From Cryomorphaceae bacterium (GTDB lineage Bacteria; Bacteroidota; Bacteroidia; Flavobacteriales; ECT2AJA-044): DNA of 64,000 bases. The stretch spans positions 2,604,001 to 2,668,000 of the forward strand of contig CP059070.1 in the NCBI GenBank assembly GCA_017798125.1, written 5' to 3'. The notes under the pieces are model-generated. The model worked only from the letters and a program-made list of their open reading frames with translations, did no database searches and was not told where the DNA came from. Numbering within the stretch: the first letter of the stretch is position 1; each line of letters starts with the position of its first letter. This document shows, one piece after another, positions 3,207 through 45,790 of the stretch. The position numbers were made by a program, and so were the translations under genes.

Positions 3207-3455
3207 AAGCTAAAGGCACAACATAATCTAAGCGCTGTTTAGCTGAGATCGATGATGCCAGTCCCTTCCCAACAGCTTGCAACTGGGTGGGCGCTTGAGC
3301 ATCGCGCCGTAGGCGCAAATTCTGAATCTCGTTTATTTAGCGCGTCATACAGGCCTGAGACTTCATTTCTTTACTCCGGTCTTTCTTATCTTCCCTTCAA
3401 TATGGCAAGGCGCTTGCCCTTGCTTGCAAATAGTTGATAAACGCATCTTCGAGAA
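3207..3455. other. Intergenic region with the second long repeat copy
   Basis: These 249 bp hold hairpin repeat copy 2 (3301-3317) within a longer, diverged duplicate of the 478-610 region. Short open frames here on both strands are translations of repeat sequence and are not supported as genes. Confidence 0.6.
3301..3317 (+). repeat. Hairpin repeat family 1, copy 2
   Basis: Perfect copy of ATCGCGCCGTAGGCGCA between two plus-strand genes. The flank CAACTGGGTGGGCGCTTGAGC upstream differs from that of copy 1 at only two bases. Confidence 0.92.
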
Positions 3456-5608: not shown

Positions 5609-6364
5609 ATGAGTTCTAAGACAGCAATTATAACAGGAGGTAGTCGCGGACTAGGAAGAGATATGGCCCTTAACCTGGCCAAAGACGGTGTTGACATCAT
5701 CTTCTCCTACCATCAAAATGAAGCGAAGGCACAGGAAGTCATCTCGGAAATAACCGCTATGGGCCAGAAAGCCGTGGCCTTTCAATTTGATGCCAATGAC
5801 TACACCAGTGGACAAGCGTTCATTAAAGAGGCCTCGGATTATTTGAAGAAGGAAAACGGCAACAGCAAATTCGATTTTCTAATCAATAATGCGGGAACGG
5901 GTACGTTCAACCTAGTCTCCGATACAACAGAGGAGCAGTTCAATGAAATGATGAATATTCACCTCAAGAGTGTTTACTTCATGACACAAGCTGCTTTGCC
6001 CTATCTTAATGATGGCGGAAGGATCGTCAATATATCGAGTGGATTGTCTCGCTTCAGCTTGCCGGGGATGTCCGCATACGCCGTAATGAAGGGCGCCATT
6101 GAAGTATTTACGCGCTATCTGGCGAAAGAACTAGGTGGGCGCAAAATCACAGCGAACGTCATTGCCCCTGGCGCCATTGCAACGGATTTTGCGGGTGGAA
6201 GCAATAAAGATGAAGAGAAAGCAGCCATTATCTCCAGTATCACGGCCCTTGGACGCGTAGGAGAGGCTGAAGATGTAGGTGGAACCGTTGCCTTCCTCTG
6301 TTCGGATAAAGCCGGTTGGATCAACGGACAGCGCATTGAAGTTTCAGGAGGAATGTTAGTTTGA
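5609..6364 (+). CDS. SDR-family NAD(P)-dependent oxidoreductase
   Basis: Start taken at ATG 5609 (MSSKTAIITGG), since the upstream TTG at 5573 would add a non-SDR leader. The 251-aa length is classical-SDR size. The motifs are TGGSRGLG (residues 9-16, cofactor-binding Rossmann loop), NNAG (93-96), Ser 143/144, and Y157-AVM-K161, the catalytic Tyr/Lys. It should reduce or oxidise a carbonyl/alcohol with NAD(P)(H); substrate unknown. An AraC regulator follows 21 bp downstream on the same strand, the first of three SDR-AraC pairs in this window. Confidence 0.92.
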   Translation: MSSKTAIITGGSRGLGRDMALNLAKDGVDIIFSYHQNEAKAQEVISEITAMGQKAVAFQFDANDYTSGQAFIKEASDYLKKENGNSKFDFLINNAGTGTFNLVSDTTEEQFNEMMNIHLKSVYFMTQAALPYLNDGGRIVNISSGLSRFSLPGMSAYAVMKGAIEVFTRYLAKELGGRKITANVIAPGAIATDFAGGSNKDEEKAAIISSITALGRVGEAEDVGGTVAFLCSDKAGWINGQRIEVSGGMLV

Positions 6365-6385: not shown

Positions 6386-7303
6386 ATGGCAGAACTAAGA
6401 CACTTTAAGAAGGTCAGCGACTATCATAAATTGGCAAAACTGCCGGCACCCGAACATCCTTTAGTGAGCCTTGTGGACTACAGTCAAGTGCGGTATCCCG
6501 ATGACGTTGCCTCTCTCAGGTGGAAACAGGATTACTACACCATCGGGCTTAAGCGCAACGTTCCGCACAAGATGTTCTACGGCCAGCAAGACTACGATTT
6601 TGATGAAGGCCTGATGACCTTTGTGGCGCCCAACCAAATTATGGGCCTTGCCAACAACCCCAATGTCAATAGCAGTCAGCCTTCTGGTTGGCTGCTACTG
6701 GTGCATCCCGATTTCTTGTGGAACACCGCCCTTGGCGCCACCATCAACGAGTATGATTTCTTCGGCTACAACGTAAACGAAGCGCTCTTCCTATCGGAGA
6801 AGGAGGAAGAAATGATCATTGATCTGCTGACGAGCATACAGAAGGAGTATCAATCGAATATTGACCAGTTCAGTCAGAAGATCGTCATCTCTCAAATTGA
6901 GCTCTTGCTGAACTTTGCGGAGCGCTTTTACGCCCGTCAGTTCATCACTCGGAAGATCTCGAATCATCTGATCCTGTCACAGCTTGAAACGATATTGAAC
7001 GATTTGTTCCGATCCGATCAATTAGTCGAACAAGGGCTACCGACTGTGCAAGGGGTAGCGGACCAACTGAACTTGTCTCCCAACTATCTGAGCGGAATGC
7101 TCAAGTCCTTAACGGGACAAAGCACACAACAGCACATCCACGACAAGTTGATCGAAAAGGCCAAGGAACAACTTTCCACCACGCCCCTATCCATCAGTGA
7201 AATAGCCTATGGTCTGGGATTCGAACATCCAGCATCTTTCACCAAGCTTTTCAAGAACAAAACCGATATGTCGCCCTTGGAATTTAGGAAGGCTTATAAT
7301 TGA
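6386..7303 (+). CDS. AraC-family regulator, PEHP paralogue 1
   Basis: A 305-residue cytosolic regulator. The N-terminal ligand-sensing half begins RHFKKVSDYHKLAKLPAPEHP, a pattern shared with the genes at 21420, 24861 and 35185. The C-terminal AraC domain (about residues 205-303) has two HTH motifs and ends KTDMSPLEFRKAYN. A conserved middle block (EALFLSEKEEEMI, then FAERFYARQF) is also common to the four paralogues. It sits 21 bp after the SDR and probably controls it. The last 95 bp overlap an open frame leading into an oxygenase domain. Confidence 0.9.
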   Translation: MAELRHFKKVSDYHKLAKLPAPEHPLVSLVDYSQVRYPDDVASLRWKQDYYTIGLKRNVPHKMFYGQQDYDFDEGLMTFVAPNQIMGLANNPNVNSSQPSGWLLLVHPDFLWNTALGATINEYDFFGYNVNEALFLSEKEEEMIIDLLTSIQKEYQSNIDQFSQKIVISQIELLLNFAERFYARQFITRKISNHLILSQLETILNDLFRSDQLVEQGLPTVQGVADQLNLSPNYLSGMLKSLTGQSTQQHIHDKLIEKAKEQLSTTPLSISEIAYGLGFEHPASFTKLFKNKTDMSPLEFRKAYN

Positions 7304-7973
7304 CGCTGCGCAATTCTTCGACCCCAATCGCCTACATGATCTGCGCACGTACTTGGAAAACGCCGCCGAGGCTCAAATTCCTATTCGCCCGCCCTACGGC
7401 ATTCAGTTAAATCGTTTTGGCATGATGCTGGACCTACGGTCCGAAGGCTACTTGGCCGCACCTCATTTCCAAGCGTTTTACAACATGATCATGGACCGAT
7501 ACATGCGGCCAGTAGCCCGCTTGTTGCTCGGCACCTACGGCTATGACCAACAAACCTTCGGCTTTTCCATTCAGTACAACCCGGACAAGGACAAGGATCT
7601 AAATCCGCATACGGACGCCTCCGCGGCCACCTTGAACATCAACATCAATCTTCCCAATGAGTCCTTTACCGGTTCGGAGGTCGACTTTCAAAACCATTCA
7701 GCGGGCAGAACCGTGCGGACCGTTTTCAAGCCGGGCCTAGCCATTATTCACCGCGGAAATGTGCCTCATGCAACACATCCCATCACCAGTGGTCAACGCA
7801 GCAACCCGGTCACCTGGCTCTACGGTGAGCGCATGCAAATACCAAGAGGGCATTCCAGTAGTTACGGAGGTGTTGGCGTAGCCTCGCCTGGAGTAGCTAT
7901 TCCTCAAGAAGTCTCAGCCCAAGAACGCTGGCAAGTACCAACGGCACCAAAAGATGAATTTGCGCCATTTTAA
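7209..7973 (+). CDS. OGFOD2-like 2-oxoglutarate/Fe(II) dioxygenase, start uncertain
   Basis: The recognisable domain begins at about nt 7300, right at the AraC stop codon. It has H-x-D (His 7608-7610, Asp 7614-7616), a distal His at 7767-7769, and the HRGNVPHATHP...GQR motif followed by NPVTWLYG. Together these match the eukaryotic-type OGFOD2 prolyl-hydroxylase-like fold, including its NRFGMML lead-in. The Fe(II) ligands and the 2-oxoglutarate-binding Arg are therefore present. The frame is open back to ATG 7209 inside the AraC gene. No ATG lies between the AraC stop and 7422, so the true start may be a non-ATG codon near 7299-7353, by translational coupling. The C-terminal tail is proline/glycine-rich. 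Confidence 0.72.
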   Translation: MVWDSNIQHLSPSFSRTKPICRPWNLGRLIIDAAQFFDPNRLHDLRTYLENAAEAQIPIRPPYGIQLNRFGMMLDLRSEGYLAAPHFQAFYNMIMDRYMRPVARLLLGTYGYDQQTFGFSIQYNPDKDKDLNPHTDASAATLNININLPNESFTGSEVDFQNHSAGRTVRTVFKPGLAIIHRGNVPHATHPITSGQRSNPVTWLYGERMQIPRGHSSSYGGVGVASPGVAIPQEVSAQERWQVPTAPKDEFAPF

Positions 7974-8101
7974 TGGGATATTGCGGCCTCTTAGAAGAGT
8001 GGAAATGATAAAACGTACGGTGACTAGTCGTGGAGAACAAAAACTCGTTTCACTCGTAAACCATAAGTACTGGTCATAAACCGACCAACAATACGATACT
8101 T

Positions 8102-8455
8102 ATGAAGTTACTCCTTGCTCTCTCGATTACCCTCTTTCTTTGCTTTGATAGCAGTGCTCAGACCGAATTTGTCATTGAACCTTCTCAAAGCATGGTCATG
8201 ACGGGAAAGGGCCCCGGTCAAGATGCAACCATCAACCCATACTACGGTCAGGATTGCTATGCACTAGTCGAGAATATTGGAAAGCGTGCATTCTCCATCA
8301 GAATTCAGCAAGGGACAGGAATTGTTGAGGAAATCTCCATTGCGAAAGACGAACTCGTAAAGGTGAAGCTCTTGAAGGGGTACTCGCTTTTCTTGGATCC
8401 CAATCCAGAGGGTGTGGCACGGGCCCTTGTGGACTACGAGAAGATGGAGGATTAG
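8102..8455 (+). CDS. Small exported protein of unknown function
   Basis: A 117-residue protein with a signal peptide (MKLLLALSITLFLCFDSSAQ, cleavage after AQ). The mature part of about 97 aa is predicted mostly beta (FVIEPSQSMVMTGKG, then ENIGKRAFSIRIQ). It lacks cysteine pairs apart from one Cys in DCYAL, and lacks a lipobox. I do not recognise the family. It stands alone between the oxygenase and an SGNH hydrolase on the same strand, with gaps of 128 and 81 bp. Confidence 0.68.
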   Translation: MKLLLALSITLFLCFDSSAQTEFVIEPSQSMVMTGKGPGQDATINPYYGQDCYALVENIGKRAFSIRIQQGTGIVEEISIAKDELVKVKLLKGYSLFLDPNPEGVARALVDYEKMED

Positions 8456-12028: not shown

Positions 12029-12041
12029 AGCAAAGAGAAGC

Positions 12042-12058
12042 ATCGCGCCGTAGGCGCA
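12042..12058 (+). repeat. Hairpin repeat family 1, copy 3
   Basis: Perfect 17-nt copy between the end of the nitrilase operon (12028) and the TrpF-like start (12090). It occupies over a quarter of a 61-bp gap. Confidence 0.92.
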
Positions 12059-12089
12059 AAATCCAAAAGTCTCGCCTATATTCGTCTTT

Positions 12090-21419: not shown

Positions 21420-22331
21420 ATGAAAGAGATCGTTCACCTCAAATCGATACGGGAGGCACATGATTTTTTGAGCCTTCCCGTTCCTGAGCACCCACTCATT
21501 TCTGTTGTCGAACTCAATGATCGAATCATCAACTACGACTACGGAGAAACCAAGTTTTTGTTCGACTTTTATCAAGTAAGCCTGAAATCCGGTTTTGCTG
21601 GTTCCATGCTCTATGGACGGAATTCGTACGATTTTGAAGATGGTTCTTTGACCTTCATAAAGGCCGGCCAGGTCATTCAGATGGAACGGCTGCACGATCC
21701 AGTCCAAGGTGGGTCTGGATGGACGCTACTGTTCCACCCCGATCTTATCCGAAAATCCGACCTCGGTATTTCTATTGATGACTTCTCCTTCTTCCATTAC
21801 GATATTCATGAAGCTCTTCACCTTTCCGAAAAGGAAATTCAATCTCTCGATGATTTAGTGAAGAAGATTAGAGAGGAATACCAGCAGAATATCGACAAAC
21901 ACAGTCAGGAGCTCATGATCGGAAATATTGAAATGCTACTGAAGTACAGTAAGCGGTTCTACGATCGGCAGTTCTACACTCGGTCCAATTTAAATCAGGA
22001 CATTTTGGCTTCCTTTCAACGAATATTAAAAGCCTACTACTCTTCAGATAAGCCGGCCGCTTTTGGCATCCTGTCCGTCAAGGAGTGTGCCGATGAGCTG
22101 AACTTATCCGTCAACTACTTTGGCGATTTAATGAAGGCTGAAACGGGCCGATCAGCTAAGGATCATATTCAGGACTTTATCATAGAAAAGGCCAAAAACC
22201 GCTTGCTTTCAAGCAATCAAAGTGTCAGTGAAATCGCCTACGACCTCGGGTACGCCTATCCACAAAGCCTCAATAAAATTTTCAAGGCTCGAGTGGGTGT
22301 AAGTCCGAACCAGTACCGTAGTCAAAACTAA
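21420..22331 (+). CDS. AraC-family regulator, PEHP paralogue 2
   Basis: A 303-residue paralogue of the genes at 6386, 24861 and 35185: LPVPEHP near residue 20, EALHLSEKEIQSL, YSKRFYDRQFYTR, and the AraC domain LSVNYFGDLMKAETG...GVSPNQYR. Here it is the last gene of an alpha/beta hydrolase-SRPBCC operon instead of following an SDR. Its binding site could be the 21-bp-period direct repeat at 19963-19998, upstream of the whole operon. Confidence 0.9.
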   Translation: MKEIVHLKSIREAHDFLSLPVPEHPLISVVELNDRIINYDYGETKFLFDFYQVSLKSGFAGSMLYGRNSYDFEDGSLTFIKAGQVIQMERLHDPVQGGSGWTLLFHPDLIRKSDLGISIDDFSFFHYDIHEALHLSEKEIQSLDDLVKKIREEYQQNIDKHSQELMIGNIEMLLKYSKRFYDRQFYTRSNLNQDILASFQRILKAYYSSDKPAAFGILSVKECADELNLSVNYFGDLMKAETGRSAKDHIQDFIIEKAKNRLLSSNQSVSEIAYDLGYAYPQSLNKIFKARVGVSPNQYRSQN

Positions 22332-22973: not shown

Positions 22974-22989
22974 TGGGTGGAAATGAGGC

Positions 22990-23006
22990 ATCGCGCCGTA
23001 GGCGCA
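22990..23006 (+). repeat. Hairpin repeat family 1, copy 6
   Basis: Perfect copy, followed by an A-run, between the NTF2-like stop (22973) and the DUF523 start (23024). Confidence 0.92.
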
Positions 23007-23023
23007 AAAAAAGGAAAGGAACA

Positions 23024-23913: not shown

Positions 23914-24861
23914 ATGAAAGCAAGTGCATTCGGTCCTAAAGGATGGACCCCAGATCAAATAAAAAGCCTCAAGGGAAAAACCTACCTCATCAGTGGAGCC
24001 AATACAGGAGCGGGCTTCGAGGCTGCTCGAATTCTCCTCAACAAAGAAGCTGAAGTGGTCATGCTCAATCGCAATGAGCAGAAGTCTCAGGCCGCAATTG
24101 AAAAGCTGAAGGATGAATTTGGATCACATGCCAAGGTTTCCTTCATACAGATGGATCTTTCGGACTTGGCATCAGTCCGCGAGGCCGCGGAGAAAATCAC
24201 ACAAACCGTTCCGCACATTGATGCGCTCATGTGCAACGCGGCCATCGCCCAGGTCCCCAAGCAGGTTCTGACTGTGGATGGCTTTGAAAGCCAATTAGGA
24301 GTCAATCACTACGGTCATTTCTTGCTCATCCGCCTGTTGTTCGACCATCTCGAAGAGTCAAAGGCACGTATTGTTGTCGTCGGTAGCGAAGGCTATAAAA
24401 TGGGCATCAAGACCATGCAATTCGACGATATGAATTGGGACAAGAACTACCATCCCATGAACACGTATTGCCATAGTAAGTTGGCACAAATGATCTTTGC
24501 ATATGAACTGCAGGACCGCATCAAAGCCTCGGGAAAGAACGTCGAGGTTTATGTATGCCACCCGGGAGCTTCAAAAACATCTCTGATTCGCAACAGCGCG
24601 AGCCTTAGGGATCGAATCATCTTCTCCATCATGGCTGCCTCTCCACTGGTTCAGTCAGCTGAAAAAGGTGCGTACCCAGAAGTCATGTGTGCCACTCAAG
24701 AGGGTTTGACTGAAAAAGAGTATTATGGACCCACTGGTTTTATGAATTGGAAAGGCCCGGTTGGTGCATGTGATCTTCAACCCCATGCTCAAGACAAAGA
24801 GTTGGCCCAGCGTCTTTGGACCATATCCGAGGAACAAACCAGCGTTAAATGGGATTTGTGA
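23914..24861 (+). CDS. SDR-family oxidoreductase (retinol dehydrogenase/POR-like), AraC-linked
   Basis: A 315-residue extended-length SDR: SGANTGAGF at about 28-36, CNAAIA (NNAG equivalent) at about 104-109, VVVGSEGYKMG, and the Tyr-Lys pair in Y-CHS-K at about 187-191. FDDMNW and CHPGASKTSL are typical of the WW-oxidoreductase/protochlorophyllide-reductase-like SDR group. It probably reduces a hydrophobic carbonyl. Its stop codon overlaps the next gene's ATG by one base (TGATG), so translation is coupled to the AraC regulator. Confidence 0.92.
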   Translation: MKASAFGPKGWTPDQIKSLKGKTYLISGANTGAGFEAARILLNKEAEVVMLNRNEQKSQAAIEKLKDEFGSHAKVSFIQMDLSDLASVREAAEKITQTVPHIDALMCNAAIAQVPKQVLTVDGFESQLGVNHYGHFLLIRLLFDHLEESKARIVVVGSEGYKMGIKTMQFDDMNWDKNYHPMNTYCHSKLAQMIFAYELQDRIKASGKNVEVYVCHPGASKTSLIRNSASLRDRIIFSIMAASPLVQSAEKGAYPEVMCATQEGLTEKEYYGPTGFMNWKGPVGACDLQPHAQDKELAQRLWTISEEQTSVKWDL

Positions 24862-25769
24862 TGCGACATTTTAAGACCCTCTCGGAGTACCTGGAATATT
24901 TGGAGTTGCCGCCGCCAGAGCATCCAATGCTCGACGTATCCGTAGCATCGGGCGAAGGTTACCTCCCTTGCCCAATCGACAGCTCTCCGCCTATAACCAA
25001 TGAATGCTATTCCATTAGTCTAAAAAAGGTTGTCCATGGAGAATTGAATTACGGACGTACCAAATTTGACTTTACCAACGGAGCTTTGGTGTTCTTGGCC
25101 CCAAGGCAAGTCCTTCAATGGGACAACCAAATCATTGTTGACCAAAAAGGGTTCTCAATTCAATTTCACGAAGACTTCATCAAGGGAACAGACTTGGCTC
25201 AGGAGATTAAGAAGTATGGATTCTTCTCCTACTCTGTCCACGAGGCCCTTCATCTCTCTCCAAAGGAAGAGCGGCAAATTGAAAGCATCGTTGAGAGTAT
25301 TGAAACCGAGTACCAAAACAACCAAGATGAGTTCAGCAAGGACATTATCATTGCGCACCTGAGTACGCTCTTGATGTATGCGAATCGATTTTACGAACGT
25401 CAGTTTATCAATCGCAAAGAGCACTCGACCAACCTTCTGGAGCGCTTCAATTTGCAACTTGAATCTCACTTCTCTTCCGAGGCCATCGAAGATCACGGCA
25501 TTCCCAAAATAGAAGAGATCGCCGAAAAACTTTCCGTATCACAACGCTATCTGTCCGATACCTTGAAGAAAGAAACCGGGAAGAGCTCTACAGAGCACCT
25601 TCAACTCTTCTTAATTAACGAGGCAAAGAATCGGCTCTTAGCGCCAAACGCATCTATCTCTGAAGTAGCCTACGAGCTTGGCTTCGAGTACCCGCAATAC
25701 TTCTCTAGACTTTTCAAGAAGCGGACCGGCATGAGTCCCAAGTCATACATCGAAGCCAATCTGAATTAA
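24861..25769 (+). CDS. AraC-family regulator, PEHP paralogue 3
   Basis: I choose ATG 24861 (MRHFKTLSEYLEYLELPPPEHP): it lines up with the other paralogues and gives a TGATG overlap with the SDR, whereas ATG 24849 would overlap more. The 302-residue product has the shared EALHLSPKEERQI and YANRFYERQF blocks. The C-terminal AraC domain has LSVSQRYLSDTLKKETGKSSTEH, VAYELGFEYPQYFSRLF and MSPKSY. It most likely regulates its own SDR-AraC operon. Confidence 0.9.
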   Translation: MRHFKTLSEYLEYLELPPPEHPMLDVSVASGEGYLPCPIDSSPPITNECYSISLKKVVHGELNYGRTKFDFTNGALVFLAPRQVLQWDNQIIVDQKGFSIQFHEDFIKGTDLAQEIKKYGFFSYSVHEALHLSPKEERQIESIVESIETEYQNNQDEFSKDIIIAHLSTLLMYANRFYERQFINRKEHSTNLLERFNLQLESHFSSEAIEDHGIPKIEEIAEKLSVSQRYLSDTLKKETGKSSTEHLQLFLINEAKNRLLAPNASISEVAYELGFEYPQYFSRLFKKRTGMSPKSYIEANLN

Positions 25770-35184: not shown

Positions 35185-36105
35185 ATGACAGATATTTTCA
35201 ACATATCAAGCGTTTCGCAGTTCCATGAACTTCTTGGATTGCCTGCCCCAGAACACCCCTTGATTACGTTCATAAACGATCGTGATGTTGACTTTCATAC
35301 GGAGATTGACGAGTCCCTTTATGGGATTCGTTTCTCTTCCGATATGTACTCCATCATGTACAAGGACAAGATTAGCGGTTCTTTGGGCTACGGGCGAAAC
35401 TCCTATGACTATCAAGAGGGCACCTTGATTTTTGGTAGTCCAGGTCAAGTCTTTACTTCTCCGACCAAAGATGAGATTCAAGGTAAAGAAGGTTGGACCT
35501 TACTTTTTCATCCAGACCTATTGGCGAAATCGAACCTCGGTGAGCAGATGGATCAGTATTCCTACTTCTCCTATGAAGTGACTGAAGCGCTGCACCTTTC
35601 CAGCAAGGAAGAAGGGTTCATCGTTCAAGTCATGGAGCAGATTAAAACGGAGTACTCTCAAAATTTAGATAAACATAGTCAGGGCTTGATTCTCTCCAAC
35701 TTGGAGCTCTTGCTCAACTACTGCATGCGCTTCTACGACCGTCAGTTTTACACGCGAACCAACCTGCACAGTGACTTTGTAAGTGAATTTGAATCAACTT
35801 TGAAGAAGTACTTCGGTTCCGAGTTGATCGTTGAAAACGGTCTACCCTCTACCTCCTACTTTGGACGAGAGCTCAATATGTCTGCCAGCTATTTGAGCGA
35901 TATGCTCAAGAAAGAGACTGGCAAGAGCACCAAGGAGCACATCGATAATTACATCGTCCGGAAGGCAAAGAATATATTACTCAGTTCCAATCAATCGGTC
36001 AGTGAAATTGCCTTTGGATTAGGCTTCGAGTACCCGCAGAGCTTCACGCGTATGTTTAAGAAGAAAACCGGAATGAGTCCAAACGAATACCGCCAGGTCA
36101 ACTAA
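35185..36105 (+). CDS. AraC-family regulator, PEHP paralogue 4
   Basis: A 306-residue paralogue of the genes at 6386, 21420 and 24861: LPAPEHP near residue 22, FSYEVTEALHLSSKEE, YCMRFYDRQFYTR, and AraC HTH blocks LNMSASYLSDMLKKETGKSTKEH and IAFGLGFEYPQSFTRMFKKKTGMSPNEYR. The last block is nearly identical to that of paralogue 3. It follows its SDR by 6 bp, so the pair is surely one transcript. Its sensed ligand is probably related to the SDR substrate. Confidence 0.92.
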   Translation: MTDIFNISSVSQFHELLGLPAPEHPLITFINDRDVDFHTEIDESLYGIRFSSDMYSIMYKDKISGSLGYGRNSYDYQEGTLIFGSPGQVFTSPTKDEIQGKEGWTLLFHPDLLAKSNLGEQMDQYSYFSYEVTEALHLSSKEEGFIVQVMEQIKTEYSQNLDKHSQGLILSNLELLLNYCMRFYDRQFYTRTNLHSDFVSEFESTLKKYFGSELIVENGLPSTSYFGRELNMSASYLSDMLKKETGKSTKEHIDNYIVRKAKNILLSSNQSVSEIAFGLGFEYPQSFTRMFKKKTGMSPNEYRQVN

Positions 36106-39764: not shown

Positions 39765-39779
39765 GACGGAAGTAAAAAC

Positions 39780-39796
39780 ATCGCGCCGTAGGCGCA
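39780..39796 (+). repeat. Hairpin repeat family 1, copy 12
   Basis: Perfect copy 15 bp after the DUF1801 stop and 13 bp before the dehalogenase ATG, filling most of the 45-bp gap. Confidence 0.92.
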
Positions 39797-39809
39797 AATT
39801 CACAGTGAA

Positions 39810-45740: not shown

Positions 45741-45751
45741 CAGGTAAAGGC

Positions 45752-45768
45752 ATCGCGCCGTAGGCGCA
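45752..45768 (+). repeat. Hairpin repeat family 1, copy 13
   Basis: Perfect copy 11 bp after the surface-protein stop and 22 bp before the Crp/Fnr start. Confidence 0.92.
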
Positions 45769-45790
45769 ATACTCATAATTAAAGGATTCT

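Follow-up and report, generated by a model that had tools for sequence, protein, structure and literature searches.

The window, by which we mean the whole 64,000-nucleotide stretch analyzed here (positions 2,604,001 to 2,668,000 of contig CP059070.1 from a Cryomorphaceae bacterium), carries on its forward strand a gene for an SDR-family oxidoreductase (5609 to 6364; Pfam adh_short_C2, 1.8e-55) and its partner, an intact gene for an AraC-family regulator of 305 amino acids (6386 to 7303; Pfam HTH_18, 2.8e-19), followed by a frame encoding a 2OG-Fe(II) oxygenase of an OGFOD2-like/lysyl-hydroxylase-like family (7305 to 7973). The complete open reading frame of the latter extends from an ATG at 7209 to 7973 (254 amino acids) and shares 95 bases with the 3' end of the AraC gene in the +1 frame. 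Alignment of this frame to its relatives begins at query residues 4 to 6 (7305 to 7311), and the junction (7301 to 7307) places the AraC stop codon, TGA at 7301 to 7303, against codon 98 of the oxygenase in the numbering of the full-length Reichenbachiella versicolor protein (L002, 319 amino acids). The original prediction that the domain begins at the AraC stop without a nearby ATG is thus correct, and there is no good start codon at this edge. By sequence comparison the AraC protein is complete, with its C-terminal HTH, and stops at its ancestral end, which matches three paralogues in the window and all six relatives compared. These three paralogues (21420 to 22331, 24849 to 25769 and 35185 to 36105) are 40-42% identical to the regulator studied here, and all four lie on the same strand within 30 kb in a region where most genes are co-directional.

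The HxD...H iron triad and the 2OG-binding arginine are complete in the window copy of the oxygenase, as originally proposed. The histidine at 7608, aspartate at 7614, histidine at 7767 and arginine at 7797 (H134, D136, H187 and R197 in A3 numbering) are invariant in a 42-row alignment, and we assume for them the roles familiar from the 2OG-Fe(II) oxygenase superfamily. The surrounding motif reads HRG-x3-H-x3-P-x3-G-x-R (HRGNVPHATHPITSGQR), which differs from the earlier description in the spacer before the glycine, three residues instead of four. The label "eukaryotic-type OGFOD2-like" is apt in its second half, given that 41 of the 42 aligned members match the OGFOD2-like domain PF25238 at E<=0.01, but misleading in its first, as members of the family are found in Bacteroidota and gammaproteobacteria. 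No Pfam match to PF25238 at E<=1 is obtained for the window copy because part of that domain region is lost from it; the full-length Reichenbachiella protein stays below the cut-off as well (21.2 vs 31). For PF03171, both the window copy (18.2 bits) and the Reichenbachiella protein (20.1 bits) fall short of the curated cut-off of 23, and neither NCBIfam nor PHROGs supplied a convincing name (phrog_61, 2OG-Fe(II) oxygenase, 1.1e-05). A viral origin found no confirmation among 51 pattern matches in viral contigs (0 confirmed). To our knowledge OGFOD2 has no assigned function, and none of the matches listed in a search of literature titles on OGFOD2 concerned a bacterial homologue. The family is best read from these sequences as a patchily distributed group of bacterial 2OG oxygenases: the oxygenase gene was present in 10 of 395 genomes searched from the same order and in 2 of 395 drawn from the class, each count including this genome.

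The similarity of the window copy to this family is far beyond chance, with a tblastn hit to the Reichenbachiella locus at 2e-113 and 58-74% identity to full-length relatives over its whole remaining length (74% to the Reichenbachiella protein over 222 residues). Full-length relatives share its active-site residues, including two Vibrio plasmid genes annotated as "2OG-Fe(II) oxygenase" that are 54-55% identical to the full-length query across 98% of its length. They differ in having about 97 more N-terminal residues and an ATG of their own, and many lie in a different gene cluster. We compared 89 related loci encoding 82 distinct proteins, 80 from a scan of named genomes and nine from the same-order search; some are the same genomes, and L092 and L006 have matching coordinates in the two sets. 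The further N-terminal residues are conserved in all 89 loci, and in 88 they are part of a single ATG-led frame of 313-333 amino acids with the conserved head RKLLEDAWAEWEIENKD...LWEEIIPGVY. In the remaining locus, from Lacinutrix venerupis, the head is also present but contains a single in-frame TGA (L047:2690-3010). None of the 89 is headless, and conservation in the head is only slightly lower than in the rest of the protein (mean column conservation 0.82 vs 0.88), whereas the window frame aligns to the Reichenbachiella protein only from residue 98 onward. The original prediction had listed a truncated N-terminus among its options and had pointed out that this copy would be simply truncated if orthologues turned out to start at an obvious ATG and to extend further at the N-terminus. 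This is what the orthologous loci show, and the missing start is therefore best read as an ordinary consequence of gene truncation that needs no fusion, frameshift or special start. A move of the head to another place in the genome was also considered and rejected: a head query found no match in this genome or in a genome of the same genus, while it detected the head in both control genomes.

The lost piece includes part of the predicted catalytic fold. In a structure model of the full-length Reichenbachiella protein (mean pLDDT 75, pTM 0.79), residues 31-110 reach block pLDDT values of 85-98, and the cut falls at a neighboring pair of predicted strands (90-93 and 96-100). Alignments to the best solved relatives start at about residue 47-55 of this model and the window copy begins at 98, so some 45 of the 97 missing residues would lie in the common catalytic fold, and the modeled catalytic domain of the window copy appears incomplete at its N-terminal elements. 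Among solved structures, the family is closest in fold and sequence to the lysyl hydroxylases L230 of mimivirus (6ax7; Z 14.6, rmsd 3.0 Å, 178 aligned residues) and LH3 of humans (Z about 12.4-12.8, rmsd 3.3-3.6, 182-191 aligned), at about 19-24% identity, with a profile match to 6ax6 at 1.6e-10, and these solved lysyl hydroxylase domains include part of what the window copy has lost. The model of the window copy scores much lower (mean pLDDT 59, pTM 0.58), although 29 leading residues without relatives in the alignment may depress these values.

The surroundings of the window copy differ from those of its full-length relatives. The two closest AraC relatives (L101 and L102; 75% identity) each have directly upstream an SDR gene that is 81-84% identical to the one in the window, and no oxygenase accompanies the SDR-AraC pairs of L101, L102, L103 and L105 within the fetched flank; likewise, none lies near the 29 AraC loci of other genomes (L101-L129) within about 1.5 kb on each side. 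It follows that the SDR-AraC pair existed first and then acquired, or came to lie beside, the 3' portion of an oxygenase gene. The usual order around full-length relatives is an AraC gene of another type, enoyl-CoA hydratase, Zn alcohol dehydrogenase, oxygenase and SDR, and in flavobacteria the gene often sits in a co-directional cluster that also contains a quinone-oxidoreductase-like gene. This set of AraC, enoyl-CoA hydratase-like, Zn alcohol dehydrogenase-like, OGFOD2-like oxygenase, SDR and quinone-oxidoreductase-like genes, named here by reading the sequences rather than by family search, recurs in marine Flavobacteriaceae (L002-L081). We rejected the idea that the window holds remains of that cluster, as hydratase and alcohol dehydrogenase queries found only matches of 24-31% in this genome, none of them in the window and none a close counterpart. 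The presence of AraC and SDR genes near the oxygenase in both settings may be a loose thematic likeness and a coincidence.

The surviving part of the oxygenase is well preserved. Its 222 residues contain no stop, keep all four active-site residues and match the other members at 92 of the 93 positions where these do not vary, with a single lapse from leucine to proline shortly after the conserved arginine; intact relatives, each left out in turn, miss at most two. In a tree of the remaining part, the window copy lies outside all bacteroidotal proteins (support 0.94 against two gammaproteobacterial outgroups) on a terminal branch of 0.240, compared to 0.255 for the longest intact bacteroidotal one (L045) and longer ones for the two outgroups. 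Simulated neutral decay left so few changes with P=0.087 at 2% and P=0.013 at 3% substitutions per site, from which it follows that the truncation is recent or that selection persists. The best reading is a recent truncation (no more than about 2% substitutions per site since then, if decay is neutral) or else residual or weak selection. Synonymous divergence (dS) had reached saturation in each of four pairings of the window copy with a bacteroidotal relative, which precluded a dN/dS ratio. Third-position GC content of the window copy (0.58) is close to that of five neighboring genes (0.49-0.62), unlike that of eight relatives checked (0.20-0.46), and this composition suggests that the oxygenase gene has probably long resided in genomes of this kind.

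Taken together, we consider it likely that the frame is a 5'-truncated remnant of a full-length bacterial 2OG-Fe(II) oxygenase gene and that it directly adjoins the end of an AraC gene that is itself intact. The ancestral oxygenase gene would have encoded about 317-320 amino acids and lost its first ~97 codons together with its own promoter and start. A deletion, or an insertion of the 3' part alone, would then have joined the remnant to the AraC end; the join is evident from the comparison with relatives, and the recombination event is what we infer from it. AraC would be translated and terminated normally, while the remnant, lacking a proper start and part of the catalytic fold, most likely yields no active enzyme. 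What speaks against this reading is the preservation of the 222 residues, which from sequence looks like that of a still-working protein.

That preservation, catalytic residues included, would be accounted for if the headless oxygenase were functional, with ribosomes that terminate at the AraC stop reinitiating on an ATT at 7299 (termination-reinitiation coupling), or with translation starting at the ATG at 7209. The AraC stop overlaps the in-frame ATT (ATTGA), and a Shine-Dalgarno-like AGGAAGG (7286 to 7292) stands at a fitting distance 6 nt upstream of it. However, most AraC relatives encode F-R-K-like residues at this position, and the AGGAAGG is thus built from conserved AraC codons and probably fortuitous as a ribosome site. 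An in-frame stop at 7203 precedes the frame, and near the domain edge the frame offers as possible starts only ATA at 7296 and ATT at 7299 (followed by GAC GCT GCG CAA), with CTG at 7341, TTG at 7353 and ATG at 7422 further downstream. ATT starts are very rare, and the matches listed in a literature search for AUU starts with translational coupling included, by title, one virus paper. The ATG at 7209, about 90 bp inside AraC, is the only one in frame upstream of the domain edge, and we could reject it as a conserved start given that six of nine other AraC genes compared have a +1-frame stop within this stretch. While the oxygenase frame is indeed open for 95 bp into the AraC gene (7209 to 7304), as had been pointed out, this openness looks like chance: 755 of 4868 stretches of 31 codons (16%) in 17 genes of the window are open in this frame. 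A promoter scan of 6900 to 8120 found no promoter-like site. Since no relative is headless and elements of the catalytic fold are among the lost piece, we regard a functional, coupled headless form as unlikely. The specific scenario in which the gene, by losing its head, became a working minimal oxygenase with an ATT start and coupled to AraC is quite improbable, although it would explain why 92 of the 93 invariant positions survived.

Another option of the original prediction, a programmed frameshift (+1, at the AraC stop) that yields an AraC-oxygenase fusion (...KAYN-DAAQFFD...), is compatible with the oxygenase frame being +1 relative to AraC and with the stop context TGAC, which is the one used in prfB. 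Yet the oxygenases of relatives have separate ATG-led frames, the four nearest SDR-AraC pairs show no fused or adjacent form, and the fusion product would still be devoid of the oxygenase head. Moreover, there is no good slippery P-site codon, as AAT slipping to ATT would mispair at the middle base. With no fused relative and no such codon, we rejected the frameshift as extremely unlikely; comparison with relatives revealed no conserved support for either a fusion or a coupled start. It is also very unlikely that an assembly or sequencing error collapsed or misjoined a full-length oxygenase gene and its upstream DNA onto the AraC end: the junction is known from one genome only, but this genome is a single 2.84 Mb contig and the missing head occurs nowhere else in it. 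Read as a truncated remnant, the frame no longer counts as a candidate regulator-enzyme made by fusion or frameshifting. The more interesting object is the bacterial OGFOD2-like/lysyl-hydroxylase-like family with its conserved N-terminal part, which is widespread in bacteria and, in many marine Flavobacteriaceae, embedded in the recurrent gene cluster described above.

Separately from the oxygenase locus, the genome contains a dispersed, REP-like short hairpin repeat, CATCGCGCCGTAGGCGCAA, with 61 copies at up to one mismatch (37 forward, 24 reverse) as opposed to none for the same sequence read backwards; sites in the window include 3300-3318, 12041-12059, 22989-23007, 39779-39797 and 45751-45769, among others.
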